Below, one piece after another: positions 14,804 through 63,809 of a DNA stretch of 64,000 nucleotides. The stretch is taken from positions 2,532,279 to 2,596,278 of the forward strand of contig JAOSKN010000002.1 of assembly GCA_027493525.1 (NCBI GenBank), read 5' to 3'. Below the pieces are notes generated by a model that saw only the letters and a list, made by a program, of their open reading frames with translations, was not told the DNA's origin and did not search any database. Position 1 is the stretch's first letter. Each line of letters opens with the position of its first letter. The position numbers were made by a program, and so were the translations under genes. This stretch comes from Planctomycetota bacterium (lineage in GTDB: Bacteria; Planctomycetota; SZUA-567; H5-PLA8).

Positions 14804-14822
14804 ATATCCGCCTCCTATGCCG

Positions 14823-14850
14823 GTTTCACGTTTCACGTTTTACGTTTTAG
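14823..14850 (+). repeat. Heptad array gtttcac-gtttcac-gttttac-gttttag
   Basis: Four tandem 7-mers, intergenic. Confidence 0.8.
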
Positions 14851-14939
14851 CTCCGTCCGCTTGAATCTCCCGCCCACCCTCATAGCCTTCCCACTCAACA
14901 TGCGCTTCGAGACGAAGCCGTAACGGGGAGAGCACTTCC

Positions 14940-27572: not shown

Positions 27573-27625
27573 GGTCTTTCTCCGTTTCTCCTGACCGAGG
27601 ACACCCGTCCTCAAGTCGCTAATCT

Positions 27626-27660
27626 CGGAACTCGGAACTCGGAACTCGGAACTCGGAACT
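27626..27660 (+). repeat. Perfect heptad array (cggaact)x5
   Basis: Read directly; sits between ftsI stop and murE start. Confidence 0.95.
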
Positions 27661-27665
27661 ACCAT

Positions 27666-29522
27666 CTACCCACCATGCCGGCGGGCCTTGAATTCCTTTT
27701 CGGCCAATTCCTGTTCGCGCTCGGGTCGCGGCGGCACGCCCAGGGCCTTCAGGCCGCGCCGCAGCACCTCCTTGACCGGGGGCGCGGCGACGGTGCCGCC
27801 GTAGTAGCCGAGCTTCTTGTCGGGCTCGTTGACCGCGATCAGGCAGACCAGGCGCGGGTTTTCGACGGGGCCGAAGCCGCAGAAGCTGGCGATGTAGCGC
27901 TCGTGGCTGTAGCCGCCGGGTCCGGGAATCTGCGCCGTGCCGGTCTTGCCGCCGAGCTCGTACTCGGGACACCAGGCGGAGCGCGCGGTCCCCGTGAGCA
28001 CCGTCTCGTGCAGGATCTCGCGCATGTCCAGGCTGGTTCGCTCGGAGAGCACCCGGCGCACGGGCTCGGTGCGCAGTTCGAAAAGCGTCTCGCCGCGCGG
28101 GTTAACGATCCGCTGCACCACCTGCGGGCGCAGCAGCATCCCGCCGTTGACCATCGCGGCGTAGGCGCTGGCGAGCTGGATCGGCGTGACGGCGATCTCC
28201 TGGCCCATGGGCACCGAGAGCAGGCTGTCCTTCGTCCACTTGGCGCGCGGGCGGACGATGCCGCGCCCTTCCCCCGTCAGGTCGATGCGGGTCTTCTCGC
28301 CGAACCCGAAATGCGCCACGGCGTCGTAGACGCCGTCGATGCCCAGCAGCAGGCCCAGCTTGGCCGCCCCGATGTTGCTCGACTTGGTGATGATCTGTTC
28401 CAGGCTGAGCGTGCCGTAGGCGTGGGCGTCGTGGAGCGTGCGGTAACCGACCTTCCACGCGCCGTTCTGGCAGAAGAACGCGGTCCCGCGCGAGGCCAAC
28501 TTCAGTTCCAGCACCTGCGCCGCGATGAAGGTCTTGAAGGTGCTGCCCGGCTCGAAGCAGTCCGTCAGCACGCGGTTGCGGCGGTCGCCGTCCTTGGCCG
28601 CGCCCGGCCGGTTCGGGTCGTAGGTGGGGCGGCAGGCCAGCGCGACCAGCGCGCCGGTGCGGACGTCGAGGACCACGCCGATGCACGACTTGGGATGGTA
28701 AGTCATCGTCACGAGGTCCAGCTCGTCCTCGAGCACGTGCTGGATGCCCGGATGCAGGGTCAGTTCGACTTCCATTCCGGGGCGCGGGGCCTGGGCCTCG
28801 GGCGTGTAGGCGTGCTCCCCGCCGCGGGAGAGCGCGCGCCGCGCCGCGTCGCGCTCGTAGGCGCGGAACCCGGGGATCCCGCGCAGCAGGCCGTCGAGCG
28901 CCAGTTCGACGCCTTCCTTGCCGCCGTCCACGCCGGACCAGCCCAGGACGTGCGCGCACTCCGTGCCCAGCGGGTAGCGGCGGCGGAAGTCCTCCTCGAA
29001 GCCGAGCCCGCGCAGCCCGAGCGCCTGGATTTTTTCGGCCAGGTCGGGCTCCAGGTTCCGGGCGAGGTACACCACCCGCCGGTCCGGGCGGTCCATGCGC
29101 CGGGCGAGGCTTTCCGCGTCGGCTTCCAGGAGCGGGGCGAGCTGGGCGGCGGCCGCGGGCGCATCCTTCAGGATCTTCAGGTCGGCGAAGAGGATCTTGC
29201 GCGACTCGCAGAACACGAGCGTCTCGCCGCCGGCGCCTTTGATCGTCCCACGCGGGGCCGGGAGGCGTTCGGTCGCCGTCCGTTGCCGCTTCGCCTTGGC
29301 GGCCCAGGCCTCATGCTCCAGCACCTGGATCACGTACAGCCGGACCCCCAGCGCGGCGAAGAGCAGGCACAGGGGGACGAAGACCGCGCACTGGCGAAGC
29401 TTCACGGCGCGGTCCACCCCGCCCAGCGGGCCCCAGGCCGCCGAATGGCACGCGCCGGACGCGGCGCGAAGCACCGCGGTGCTCGCGGAGGGCAAGGGCG
29501 TGGCGGCATCCTGCTGGTCCAT
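27666..29522 (-). CDS. ftsI: Penicillin-binding protein 2 / FtsI-type transpeptidase
   Basis: FEPGSTFKTFIAAQ (SxxK), ITKSSNIGAAKLG (SSN), GGKTGTAQIP (KTG). Confidence 0.95.
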   Translation of the reverse strand: MDQQDAATPLPSASTAVLRAASGACHSAAWGPLGGVDRAVKLRQCAVFVPLCLLFAALGVRLYVIQVLEHEAWAAKAKRQRTATERLPAPRGTIKGAGGETLVFCESRKILFADLKILKDAPAAAAQLAPLLEADAESLARRMDRPDRRVVYLARNLEPDLAEKIQALGLRGLGFEEDFRRRYPLGTECAHVLGWSGVDGGKEGVELALDGLLRGIPGFRAYERDAARRALSRGGEHAYTPEAQAPRPGMEVELTLHPGIQHVLEDELDLVTMTYHPKSCIGVVLDVRTGALVALACRPTYDPNRPGAAKDGDRRNRVLTDCFEPGSTFKTFIAAQVLELKLASRGTAFFCQNGAWKVGYRTLHDAHAYGTLSLEQIITKSSNIGAAKLGLLLGIDGVYDAVAHFGFGEKTRIDLTGEGRGIVRPRAKWTKDSLLSVPMGQEIAVTPIQLASAYAAMVNGGMLLRPQVVQRIVNPRGETLFELRTEPVRRVLSERTSLDMREILHETVLTGTARSAWCPEYELGGKTGTAQIPGPGGYSHERYIASFCGFGPVENPRLVCLIAVNEPDKKLGYYGGTVAAPPVKEVLRRGLKALGVPPRPEREQELAEKEFKARRHGG

Positions 29523-48287: not shown

Positions 48288-49736
48288 TTACTTCGCGGGC
48301 TCGGCCACCAAGTCGTACTCCAAGCTCTCGACGATGCGGGCCGGAATCCAGCTACCCGGCGGCTTGCGCGCCACGCCGCGGCCCTTGAGGTAGACGACGC
48401 CGTCCACTTCGAGCGCCTCGCGGCTGGTGCGGCCCACGGCCTTGACGCCGGCGGGGACGTCCTGCCCGGCGGGCGGCGGGCCGTCGAGCAGGACCTCGAC
48501 GCGCTCCCCGACGCGCCGGGCCATGCGCGCGCGGCTGACTTCGCGCTGCGCGAGCATCAGCGCCTCGCGGCGGCGGAGCTTTTCTTCGAGCGGGACGCGG
48601 TCGGGTTCGCGCGCGGCCGGCGTGAGCGGCTCGTTGGAATACAGGAAGACGCCGGCGTGGGTGAAGCGGCCTTGCTTGACGAAGTCCAGCAGTTCGAGGA
48701 AGTCGGCCTCGGTCTCGTCCGGGTAGCCGACGATGAAGGTGGTGCGGAGCGCCGCGCCGGGGAGCTTCCGTTCGATCAGGTCCAGGATCGCGAGGGTCTC
48801 GTCCTTCGTGACCATGCGCTTCATCGACTCGAGCAGCCGGTCGGCCACGTGCTGGAGGGGCATGTCGATGTACGGGCAGAAGCGCGGATCGGAGGCGAGC
48901 ACGTCCAGCATCTCGGCGGTGAGGAAGCGCGGGTAGGCGTACATCAGGCGGAACCAGCGCGGGCCTTCGACGGCTTTCAGCGCCTCGAGCAGGGCGGCCA
49001 GGCGGTACTCGCCGTAGAGGTCCTTGCCGTAGCTGGTGGTGTCCTGGGCGATGAGGCTGAGTTCCTGAACGCCGTCGCCGGCGAGGCGCCGGGCTTCCTC
49101 GACGAGTTCCTCGACCGGGCGGCTGACCTGGAGGCCGCGCATGCGGGGGATGCTGCAGAAGCGGCAGGGGTTGTTGCAGCCTTCGCTGATCTTGAGGAAC
49201 GCATGATGCCGCGGGCCGATGCGCAGGCGCGGGGCGACGAGGAAGTCGTTGTAGCTCTTGGGGACCTTCTTCTTCGCGGCGCTCTGAGCGGGCCCCTCGG
49301 CGTAGCTGCGGGCGGCTTCGGCGTAGCGCGCCGCGTCGCCGCCGGCTTCGACCAGTTCGCGGACGATCTTCGGCAGGTCCGGGTAGTCCTTGAAGCCCAG
49401 GCGCGCGTCGGCGTGCTGGAGGAAGCGGCCCAGTTCGCTCGCGTCGGCGGCGCGTTCGACGAGGCAGCCCAGGGCCACGACGGTTTTGAGGCGCCCGCCG
49501 GCCTTCAACTCGTGCAGCTCACGGAGCACCTCCGCGGTCTCGCGCCGGGCCTCGTCGATGAACCCGCAGGTGTTGACCAGGCAAACCTCGGCGATGCCGG
49601 GATCCTGCGCGATCAGAAAGCCGCTTTCGGCCAGCGCGCCGAGGATGCGTTCGCTGTCCACGAGGTTCTTGGCGCAGCCGAGGTTGACCAGGCTGACGAT
49701 GGGGGGCTCGGCGCCGGGGGTCTTGCGCTTGGGCAT
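48288..49736 (-). CDS. rimO: Ribosomal protein S12 methylthiotransferase RimO
   Basis: VSLVNLGCAKNLVDSERILG, KISEGCNNPCRFCSIPRMRG radical SAM CxxxCxxC, TFIVGYPDETEADF. Confidence 0.95.
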   Translation of the reverse strand: MPKRKTPGAEPPIVSLVNLGCAKNLVDSERILGALAESGFLIAQDPGIAEVCLVNTCGFIDEARRETAEVLRELHELKAGGRLKTVVALGCLVERAADASELGRFLQHADARLGFKDYPDLPKIVRELVEAGGDAARYAEAARSYAEGPAQSAAKKKVPKSYNDFLVAPRLRIGPRHHAFLKISEGCNNPCRFCSIPRMRGLQVSRPVEELVEEARRLAGDGVQELSLIAQDTTSYGKDLYGEYRLAALLEALKAVEGPRWFRLMYAYPRFLTAEMLDVLASDPRFCPYIDMPLQHVADRLLESMKRMVTKDETLAILDLIERKLPGAALRTTFIVGYPDETEADFLELLDFVKQGRFTHAGVFLYSNEPLTPAAREPDRVPLEEKLRRREALMLAQREVSRARMARRVGERVEVLLDGPPPAGQDVPAGVKAVGRTSREALEVDGVVYLKGRGVARKPPGSWIPARIVESLEYDLVAEPAK

Positions 49737-49782: not shown

Positions 49783-49824
49783 GTTTTCGGTTGCCGGTTG
49801 TTGGTTGCTGGTGGTCGGTTGCGG
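49783..49824 (+). repeat. Heptad array gttttcg-gttgccg-gttgttg-gttgctg-gtggtcg-gttgcgg
   Basis: 7-nt periodicity. Confidence 0.8.
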
Positions 49825-49876
49825 AGGAGTTCCTTATTTTGTGCCGGGTTCGCATTGAGGGCTGTCTGCATGGGCC

Positions 49877-49941
49877 GTTAAAAAGATGCACGGTGGTGCG
49901 TGGGTGGCGGTTGCCGGTTGTCGGTTTTCGGTTGCCGGTTG
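49877..49941 (+). repeat. Hairpin block (ttaaaaagatgcacggtggtgcg) + heptad array (gcggttg-ccggttg-tcggttt-tcggttg-ccggttg), module 1
   Basis: Block homologous to 49992-50022 and 50139-50169. Confidence 0.8.
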
Positions 49942-49991
49942 TTGAGGAGCTTCTCCTTCCCATTCTTGCCTTCCGATCTCGCGGTTGTCCA

Positions 49992-50059
49992 CGAGAGCTT
50001 AAAAAAGATGCACCGTGGTGCGCGACTCCGGGATCCGGGGGCCGGTATCCGGACTCCGG
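49992..50059 (+). repeat. Hairpin block (cgagagcttaaaaaagatgcaccgtggtgcg) + heptad array (actccgg-gatccgg-gggccgg-tatccgg-actccgg), module 2
   Basis: 31-bp block identical to that at 50139-50169. Confidence 0.85.
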
Positions 50060-50096
50060 GGCAGGAAGCAAAGGGGCTCCGTTGGAGCGCTGTTCC

Positions 50097-50124
50097 CTGG
50101 GTCCTGAGTCCGGTTCTCGGCACC
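50097..50124 (+). repeat. Heptad array ctgggtc-ctgagtc-cggttct-cggcacc
   Basis: 7-nt periodicity. Confidence 0.55.
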
Positions 50125-50138
50125 CTTCTTCCAGTCTA

Positions 50139-50204
50139 CGAGAGCTTAAAAAAGATGCACCGTGGTGCGTGGGCGCCGGTTGCCTGTTTTCGGTTCTCGG
50201 TTGC
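50139..50204 (+). repeat. Hairpin block (31 bp, identical to module 2) + heptad array (cggttgc-ctgtttt-cggttct-cggttgc), module 3
   Basis: Direct comparison. Confidence 0.85.
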
Positions 50205-50215
50205 CGCGGAACTTT

Positions 50216-50348
50216 ATCCGTTGCTTGCCACCACCTTCAGGTGGTGGATCGCGGTTCCCTTTTAGGTCTCTTTCCGCCGGCTTAAGCCGGCGGAAAGAGG
50301 ATCGATGGGCTTCGCACCACCGGCTGAAGCCGGTGGCAAGCAACGGAT
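50216..50348. repeat. Nested palindromic element: 17-bp outer inverted repeat enclosing three hairpins
   Basis: atccgttgcttgccacc (50216-50232) / ggtggcaagcaacggat (50332-50348); internal hairpins 50228-50247, 50268-50299, 50317-50336. Confidence 0.85.
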
Positions 50349-50353
50349 TGATG

Positions 50354-50409
50354 GCGGGCGGGACGCCCGCGGTACGGACGGCGTGCCGGCGAGACGCCGG
50401 CGCTACGAA
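50354..50409 (+). repeat. Double-hairpin repeat copy 1 (gcgggcgggacgcccgc...gccggcgagacgccggcgctacgaa)
   Basis: Second copy at 50994-51040. Confidence 0.8.
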
Positions 50410-50717
50410 CCGGACTTCCTGCGCCTGCTTCGGCGCGCTTCGACCGCGGGACGCGAAGGCCGACGCGGAGCCGCCAACTCCGGCGCCGGGCTGCGCTCCT
50501 CCGAGGAGGACGGGGAGCCCCGGCCTCGCGGTTCAAGTGCCCGCGCGCGCGGTCGGGAGTTTGCGCGCGAGCCCGCGAGGTTGAAGAGAGTATCCCCCGC
50601 GCGGGGGCGGTTGTCAATGATAATGTTTATAATATGGATCAAAAACAGTGTCTAAGACATGGGGTATGGCTGGGGGCTGGGGGCTGGGGTTGGGGTTGGG
50701 GTTGGGATTGAGCTTGG

Positions 50718-50818
50718 GCGGCACACCACTGCGTGGTGTGGCACCCCGACTCACGACGCGGCGGGGGGAGATCGGGCGCGGGCAAATGACGACCGGGAGC
50801 CGGTGACCGGCAACCGGC
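50718..50818 (+). repeat. Second module type, copy 1: hairpin block (gcggcacaccactgcgtggtgtggcaccccgactcacgacgcgg) + heptads (gaccggg-agccggt-gaccggc-aaccggc)
   Basis: 44-bp block repeated at 50821-50864 with one difference. Confidence 0.85.
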
Positions 50819-50820
50819 GG

Positions 50821-50915
50821 GCGGCACACCACGGCGTGGTGTGGCACCCCGACTCACGACGCGGTGAAGGGGAGGTGTCGCGCGGGCGACCGGGAACCGA
50901 CAACCGATAACCGGC
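50821..50915 (+). repeat. Second module type, copy 2: hairpin block + heptads (gaccggg-aaccgac-aaccgat-aaccggc)
   Basis: Direct comparison with copy 1. Confidence 0.85.
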
Positions 50916-50993
50916 AGGCGGCACGGGGCGGAGTACCGACCCGTGGCACGGCGGCGAGCAGGATGCTCTCGGTACGGGAGAACGAAGAGACGC

Positions 50994-51040
50994 GCGGGCG
51001 GGACGCCCACGCGAGCCGGCGAGGACGCCGGCGCTACGAA
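50994..51040 (+). repeat. Double-hairpin repeat copy 2
   Basis: gcgggcgggacgcccacgcgagccggcgaggacgccggcgctacgaa. Confidence 0.8.
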
Positions 51041-51159
51041 AGGCACGGGGCAGCTTCGCTGACCCGTGGCACGACGCACGCGGCTGCGCCGATCCGTGGC
51101 ACGCGGAGGCGGCGGCGTGGTAGGATGCGTTCGGCTTCCCAAACCCCGAGGAACCTGCC

Positions 51160-52201: not shown

Positions 52202-52291
52202 GCGGAGGTTAGGAAATAAGAGTCAAGGGTCGAAAAATCAAAAAGACAAAAGTCAAAGGTCCAAAACTAAGAGAATCGAAAACTAAGCGTC

Positions 52292-52375
52292 ATTGGTCAT
52301 TGGTCATTGGTCATTGGTCATTGGTCATTGGTCATTGGTCATTGGTCATTGGTCATTGGTCTACGGTCTACGGTC
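52292..52375 (+). repeat. Heptad array (ATTGGTC)x10 followed by (TACGGTC)x2; STRR2-like
   Basis: Counted directly: ten perfect copies 52292-52361 then two variant copies. Confidence 0.97.
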
Positions 52376-52392
52376 AACGCTGCGGCGAGGGG

Positions 52393-53013: not shown

Positions 53014-53077
53014 GGCGCACCTCCTTGAGGGTTCGTTTTTAGCGGCGCGCGCGGCGTGGCGCAAGGGGAGCGGGAAG

Positions 53078-53119
53078 CTGTGATCTGTAATCTGTAATCT
53101 GTAATCTGTGAACTGTGAT
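53078..53119 (+). repeat. Heptad array ctgtgat-(ctgtaat)x3-ctgtgaa-ctgtgat
   Basis: Read directly. Confidence 0.95.
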
Positions 53120-53169
53120 CCATAAATGGTGGCGGAGGTGTCAAAGAAATTAGAGCAAGTGCCGCCGTT

Positions 53170-53218
53170 ACAGATTACAGATTACAGATTACAGATTACA
53201 GAATACAGATCACAGTTC
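53170..53218 (+). repeat. Heptad array (acagatt)x4-acagaat-acagatc-acagttc; reverse complement of the 53078-53119 array
   Basis: Read directly; inverted relative to the neighbouring array. Confidence 0.95.
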
Positions 53219-53296
53219 ACTTCTATAGACGCGCCTCGACCGCGGCGTTAGAGTACTCGGCCATTCATCCAGGCACGCAACGGGAGGCGCACTCAC

Positions 53297-62520: not shown

Positions 62521-62547
62521 GTCGTGGCTCCATTCAATGCCGGTGAT

Positions 62548-62589
62548 CAGTAAACAGTAAACAGTAAACAGTGAACAGTGAACAGAGAC
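62548..62589 (+). repeat. Heptad array (cagtaaa)x3-(cagtgaa)x2-cagagac
   Basis: Read directly. Confidence 0.95.
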
Positions 62590-62633
62590 AGCAAACTGCA
62601 TGCATTCGACGTGTTGGGTCTTCAACCGTTCGC

Positions 62634-62661
62634 CGATTACAGATTACAGATTACAGATTAC
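62634..62661 (+). repeat. Heptad array cgattac-(agattac)x3
   Basis: Contains the stop codon of the thiO-like gene (62651-62653). Confidence 0.92.
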
Positions 62662-63809
62662 TGGCCACGGCCTTCCTCGGCATCCAGGGGCCAATCTCCA
62701 CCGGGGGGGGCTCGCCGGCGACGAGCGCGGCGACGACTTCGCCGGAGATCGGGGCGAGCAGGATGCCGTTGCGGAAGTGCCCTGCGGCGACATAGAGCCC
62801 TTCCACATCAGGGACGGGGCCCAGGAGCGGATGCACGCCGCGGAGGCCCGGGCGGACGTCGGCCCAGCCCTGCGCGGGTTCGACATGCCTGAGGAAGGGC
62901 AGCAGTCGCCTGGCGAAATCGCGCAACTCGGCCTGTCCTTCGGGCGTCGTGACGGTCTCGAAGCCGACGCGCTCCATGGTGCTGCCGGCGAGGATCAGGC
63001 CGTCCGGGCGCGGCACGAGGTAATGCTCGCCCGTCGTCAGGAGCCGCGTGCAGCGCCCGGGTTCGACCTGGAAGCAGGCGATCTGCCCGCGGACCGGCTC
63101 GATCCTGCCCGCGCGCGGCACGCGCCGCGCGAGGTCCTCGAAGCGGCCCGTCCAGGCCCCGGCGCAGACCACGACGTGGCGCGCTGCGTAGCGCTTGCCG
63201 TCGGAATCCACGGCGCCGCGCGCGCGGTCGCCTTCGATCCAGAGTTCGGTGACGGCCACGCCTTCGCGGATCAGGGCGCCGCGTTGGCGGCACGAGGCGG
63301 CCAGCGCCCGCGCGAGGCGCGGATTGCGGACCTGGCCGTCGTCGGGGGAGGTGGACGGCCGCGGCGATGCGGCTCGCGTCGAGTTCGGGCTCCAGTTCGC
63401 GCGCCCGCTCGGACGAGAGGCGTTCGGCGCGGAGTCCGCGCGCGCGGCAGCCTTCGACCATGCGCTCCAGGTTGGCCAGCGCGGCCTCGCCGGCGTTTTC
63501 GGCCAGACAGAGTTCGAGCGCGCCGCAGCGGACGTAGCCGCCGTCGATGCCGGTCTCTTCGAGGAGCCTTGCGTGCCAACGGCGATGCAGCTCCAGGCTC
63601 GCCAGCGCGAGATCGTGGTAGTCGTGCTCTTCGGTGCGCGGCCAGGGGCGGCAGTTGAGCATGCCGGAGCCGGCCCAGGAGGCGCGCGAGCCGACGCGTT
63701 CGCGTTCGAGCACCGTCACGCGCAAGCCGCGGCGGAGCGCGGCCTCCGCGGCGCAGAGCCCCACCAGCCCGCCTCCGACGACCAGAAGGTCGGGAACGCC
63801 ATCGTTCAT
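62651..63809 (-). pseudogene. thiO: Glycine oxidase ThiO / FAD-dependent oxidoreductase with one apparent frameshift
   Basis: N-part PDLLVVGGGLVGLCAAEAALRRGLRVTVLERERVGSRASWAGSGML; C-part RHVVVCAGAWTG...RPDGLILAGSTMERVGFET...LYVAAGHFRNGILLAP in another frame; shift in G5 run 63344-63348. Confidence 0.82.

Follow-up and report, generated by a model that had tools for sequence, protein, structure and literature searches.

The three conserved blocks upstream of rimO probably represent a lineage-specific family of intergenic, directional, palindromic repeat arrays rather than a control element of rimO, and these arrays appear to be remodeled by recombination between blocks. The stretch analyzed here (64 kb, referred to as the window) is the last part of contig C2 in a 7.46-Mb Planctomycetota genome, and the RimO comparison points to the Planctomycetota MAG H5_PLA8 as its closest named relative (78% identity). 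The block has an asymmetric consensus of ~35 bp, GTCTACGAGASCTT-AAAAAA-GA-TGCAC-N4-GTGCA, and the three copies lie on the plus strand. Namely, block 1 spans positions 49864 to 49900 (its 5' half is diverged, GTCTGCATGGGCCGTT, with an A5 tract at 49880 to 49884 and the palindrome TGCAC-GGTG-GTGCG at 49887 to 49900), block 2 spans 49987 to 50022 (GTCCACGAGAGCTTAAAAAAGATGCACCGTGGTGCG; palindrome at 50009 to 50022), and block 3 spans 50134 to 50169 (GTCTACGAGAGCTTAAAAAAGATGCACCGTGGTGCG; palindrome at 50156 to 50169). Checking the sequence confirmed the predicted positions of the blocks and the 31-bp identity between blocks 2 and 3 (49992 to 50022 and 50139 to 50169); the conserved block is longer than originally delimited and reaches the ends given above. 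Chance would yield 0.01 matches to AAAAGATGCACNGTGGTGCG with up to three mismatches in the window, where three were found.

The rimO gene occupies positions 48288 to 49736 on the minus strand, with its start set by homology to the protein of the sister species; from this start (~49736), the nearest block edge is 128 bp away, so that no conserved rimO leader includes the blocks. The three blocks are carried by a mosaic, multicopy, noncoding and unstranded island (49788 to 51103), in which they alternate with the spacer of unit B (49901 to 49986; 122-bp period), the spacer of unit A (50023 to 50133; 147-bp period), and the start of the end unit C (50170 to 50208), all on the plus strand. Stretches of the island recur at several other genome loci, mostly with 75 to 94% identity. 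Homologs of unit B are located at C1:1986210, C2:994786, and C3:813515, and those of unit A are found at several further loci. The orders of units across paralogous loci are C, AC, BAC, BBC, and ABAC; thus, whole units have been shuffled, duplicated, gained, and lost, with breakpoints at the blocks. In the sister species, the island is absent from the rimO locus: both genomes have a divergent rimO/beta-lactamase pair, separated by 253 bp in the sister and by ~1.42 kb here, largely consisting of the island. Since the same units adjoin other genes and are missing from the sister rimO, the array is not a feature of rimO. The proposal that the blocks belong to the rimO leader is therefore not sustained, and no rimO-specific role is evident. 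The copy at rimO may have arrived inside the ~1.3-kb mosaic island. The same island also contains a ~140-bp imperfect palindrome (50209 to 50352) with inverted ends ATCCGTTGCTTGCCACC / GGTGGCAAGCAACGGAT, which resembles a miniature inverted-repeat element.

A search with the 25-mer core, allowing up to three mismatches, gave 66 matches in the 7.46-Mb genome and none for the reversed control. A covariance model recovered at least 150 block matches, all with E<0.05, and in 122 of the 150 matches listed, GCAC and GTGC are separated by 4 nt. Blocks occur singly or, in most cases, as two to five same-direction copies with periods of ~63 to 172 bp, each unit consisting of a ~35-bp block and a spacer of 25 to 135 bp. 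The 64 clusters collected are all intergenic, save that some overlap a gene end by up to 44 bp, and no cluster mixes orientations. The repeat-spacer-like layout first noted at rimO is thus found genome-wide, as arrays in direct orientation whose spacers are mostly unrelated. Of 55 clusters, 22 lie between convergent genes, an arrangement shown by 50 of 304 adjacent gene pairs in a 400-kb sample (p=2e-4). The period varies less within an array than between arrays (109,109,109; 94,95,96; 119,122,120; permutation p=0.013), and this holds even where the spacers are unrelated. Individual arrays contain tandem-duplicate spacers that are 100%, 80%, or 63% identical, with a weaker case at 53%. Several arrays show no residual spacer similarity, and 19 equal-length pairs of low similarity were at the null level; with residual similarity in some arrays only, tandem duplication was rejected as the origin of all spacers.

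The family is concentrated in a single species. The exact block pattern occurs 115 times in this genome, once in a genome of the same genus, and seven times and once in two genomes of the same family, and it is nearly absent from 392 genomes of the phylum. The sister species has zero to one block copies; the expansion occurred in this species and not in its sister. A viral scan with the block pattern returned four contigs, about the chance level by a rough estimate.

The repeat-spacer layout, the common polarity, and an AT-rich flank present on one side of some arrays recall spacer acquisition of the CRISPR or integron kind. This is very improbable for a family made up of more than 60 dispersed small arrays, in which tandem duplicates and paralogs are found among the spacers and spacer length ranges from 25 to 135 bp. 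Moreover, the rimO locus had no match in phage and plasmid collections, and although the genome encodes 22 tyrosine recombinases, the nearest one noted lies some kilobases from the blocks. The AT-rich right flank was rejected as a general CRISPR-like leader, being seen in only ~8 to 9 of 69 sub-arrays. Another dispersed palindrome, TTGCTCCACGTGGAGCAA and then NNATTACCCTAAAGTGGTCGGAGGTCTAGACGAG, lies near the right end of eight arrays (L002, L011, L013, L015, L035, L049, L229, and L240), no more than ~120 bp downstream of the final block, and is interleaved with the blocks in L013.

The many copies, their species specificity, and their placement outside genes would also suit a miniature mobile or REP-like element moved in trans by a transposase, for example of the Y1/RAYT type. 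The genome has 22 Y1_Tnp matches, and a module containing GTCYACGA in inverted form (TCGTRGAC) closes some arrays; the inverted motif follows the last block in AT-rich sequence at L031, L040, L042, and L230, at +56 nt in three of them and at +60 in L031. Yet both abundant Y1 elements have unrelated ends, no GTAG/CGTC tag lies beside the palindrome, most unit spacers are unrelated and leave no common element body, and visual inspection of a few ends revealed no target duplication. We therefore regard such an origin as unlikely. REPs of the local Y1 transposases were rejected, as the ends of these elements are CGCGGGTGGCCCCCATAAC... or of an unrelated IS200 type, and so was an IS110 recombinase, since PF02371 had no match in the genome. 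One Y1 (RAYT-like) transposase element of ~780 bp (L183-L187, L197-L200), with ends CGCGGGTGGCCCCCATAACG, is present in ~10 copies, often beside other repeats.

The original prediction read each block on the minus strand as a hairpin plus T-tract oriented along the rimO leader. Blocks 2 and 3 do read CGCACCACGGTGCATCTTTTTT on that strand, and block 1 differs in one loop base and has a shorter T-run. If the blocks were intrinsic terminators (a minus-strand hairpin and then T6), the arrays would be tandem terminators of minus-strand genes. The polarity of the A-tract/T-tract fits this idea, as does the enrichment of clusters at convergent gene ends. In addition, among the few copies present in relatives, four lie downstream of a minus-strand gene at a distance of 36 to 88 nt, with two of the four at orthologous positions, and such gene-downstream copies keep a terminator origin in play. 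However, the 5-bp stem has a folding energy of -6.2 kcal/mol (z -0.7), where an ordinary terminator from the same genome reaches -23.4 (z -4.9), and the stem sequence is constant, without covariation or compensatory pairs. Orientations at co-directional gene pairs show no clear bias (15:9, p=0.31), whereas terminators would be expected to face one way. The block lacks the stable GC-rich hairpin before a U-tract. On balance, we doubt that the blocks are terminators, and a terminator specific to the rimO leader is not supported, given the weak hairpin, the lack of covariation, the presence of the same units beside other genes, and a sister rimO without units. A structured RNA was rejected on the absence of covariation, the weak fold, and the lack of any Rfam match at gathering score within the window.

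The original prediction also placed a heptad array after each block, the two forming a module. This is clear for the first block, where the spacer of unit B holds a GGTTNNC array at 49908 to 49941 (CGGTTGC, 85% match); the second array, in the spacer of unit A, is weak (NNNCCGG, 50027 to 50060, only 70% match), and the third was not detected. At the start of unit C, degenerate GGTT heptads can be discerned at 50175 to 50204, for which Tandem Repeats Finder gave no match even at score 30; homologs of this third array gave 16/21 at lag 7. Genome-wide, a heptad array occurs in 10 of 115 nonredundant block-downstream segments versus 4.4% of intergenic controls (odds ratio of 2.1, p=0.04), and the majority of heptad arrays have no block anywhere near them. 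The module was to be abandoned if blocks occurred elsewhere with no heptad association; with 105 of the 115 segments lacking heptads and most heptad arrays lacking blocks, it fails by its own test. The proposed module is therefore due mostly to chance, multiplied as one and the same island was copied.

Heptad arrays and blocks are independent of each other, the former being a genome-wide feature in their own right. There are 24 intergenic period-7 arrays in 400 kb of this genome versus none in 380 kb of the sister, and short periods other than 7 are near zero in the sampled 400 kb. Further period-7 arrays lie in the window at 14818 to 14852, 27612 to 27673, 52282 to 52382, 53065 to 53222, and 62538 to 62672, with differing heptamers (e.g., GTCATTG x10). 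Intergenic tandem heptamers are known as cyanobacterial STRR and as the TAACTGA repeats of Beggiatoaceae (PMC4679880). The likeness concerns the heptads here, not the blocks, and differs in that many different heptamers are used within one genome. A genome of another genus in the same family (G006; L058, L258, and L260) contains a different element in two copies, with AATCCGA-type heptads downstream of an A-tract/TGCAC hairpin.

Judging by its sequence, the constant palindrome, with its fixed gap and free center, looks more like the DNA site of a dimeric protein than like a terminator or an RNA. Such a putative site, which forms part of our preferred reading, would account for the constant arms, the fixed 4-nt gap, and the free center. 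It is possible, though not the reading we favor, that the blocks form chromosome-wide arrays of binding sites for a nucleoid or regulatory protein and are kept by selection. The fixed-gap palindrome with its free center, the adjoining A-tract, the arms that stay constant without RNA covariation, and the near-constant period of several arrays (p=0.013) are consistent with this. In contrast, the near absence of blocks from the sister implies that such a system would have to be new, no known motif corresponds to the palindrome, and the orientation and count of arrays vary freely. A LexA box, a candidate suggested by Fibrobacter, was rejected: no TGCACN4GTGCA (up to two mismatches) was found within 250 bp upstream of the lexA-like/recA genes examined in four genomes.

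Selective constraint on the block is likely, not established, and varies by unit family. In the L223 family, variable columns make up 8 of 76 in the block versus 31 of 103 in the spacer (p=0.002); in family B, the block varies less than the spacer, weakly (p=0.07), and in family A, both vary equally (p=0.65). A more specific proposal, which we consider rather improbable, is that the block is recognized by a site-specific recombinase or chromosome-organizing protein that builds and maintains small same-direction repeat-spacer arrays of controlled unit length at convergent gene ends in one planctomycete lineage.

Two known systems come close to the family described here. In the neisserial intergenic mosaic elements (NIMEs), dRS3 inverted repeats alternate with RS units of 30 to 160 bp, forming intergenic arrays of 200 to 2700 bp with hundreds of copies (PMC3898611, PMC3046118). 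The blocks share this layout, that is, a short inverted repeat with constant arms and a free center, alternating with units in intergenic arrays. However, dRS3 is ATTCCC-N8-GGGAAT, whereas the block is TGCAC-N4-GTGCA and bears, on one side, an additional A-tract and a GTCYACGA half, which gives each block a direction; furthermore, no member of IS110, the family that includes the phage enzyme linked to dRS3, is present in this genome. REPs are extragenic palindromes of 20 to 40 bp, often species-specific, found at convergent and co-directional gene ends, and some RAYT genes carry unrelated TIRs (PMC3733652). Like them, the block is a palindromic, extragenic, high-copy repeat within the 20-to-40-bp range. 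Unlike them, its consensus has no GTAG or CGTC tag next to the palindrome, no RAYT gene is flanked by it (the Y1 elements have other ends), and its copies run in the same direction within a cluster, with a unit of ~100 bp. The nearest system is NIME in layout and REP in copy number and placement, and the family belongs to neither, because the dRS3 sequence and the REP tag are missing.

Our preferred reading remains a repeat-array family remodeled through its blocks. Homologous or site-specific recombination between direct-repeat blocks would add and remove units, as proposed for the Neisseria dRS3/RS arrays, and arrays may pile up at gene 3' ends, above all convergent ones, because they would do the least harm there. 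The family has undergone an explosive expansion, with at least 150 copies in a single species versus about one in a same-genus relative, and the gain and loss of units can be read at paralogous loci. It extends a NIME-like architecture to a further phylum, in a genome that has no IS110-type enzyme such as the one linked to Neisseria dRS3, and the fixed-gap palindrome may serve as bait for its putative binding protein.
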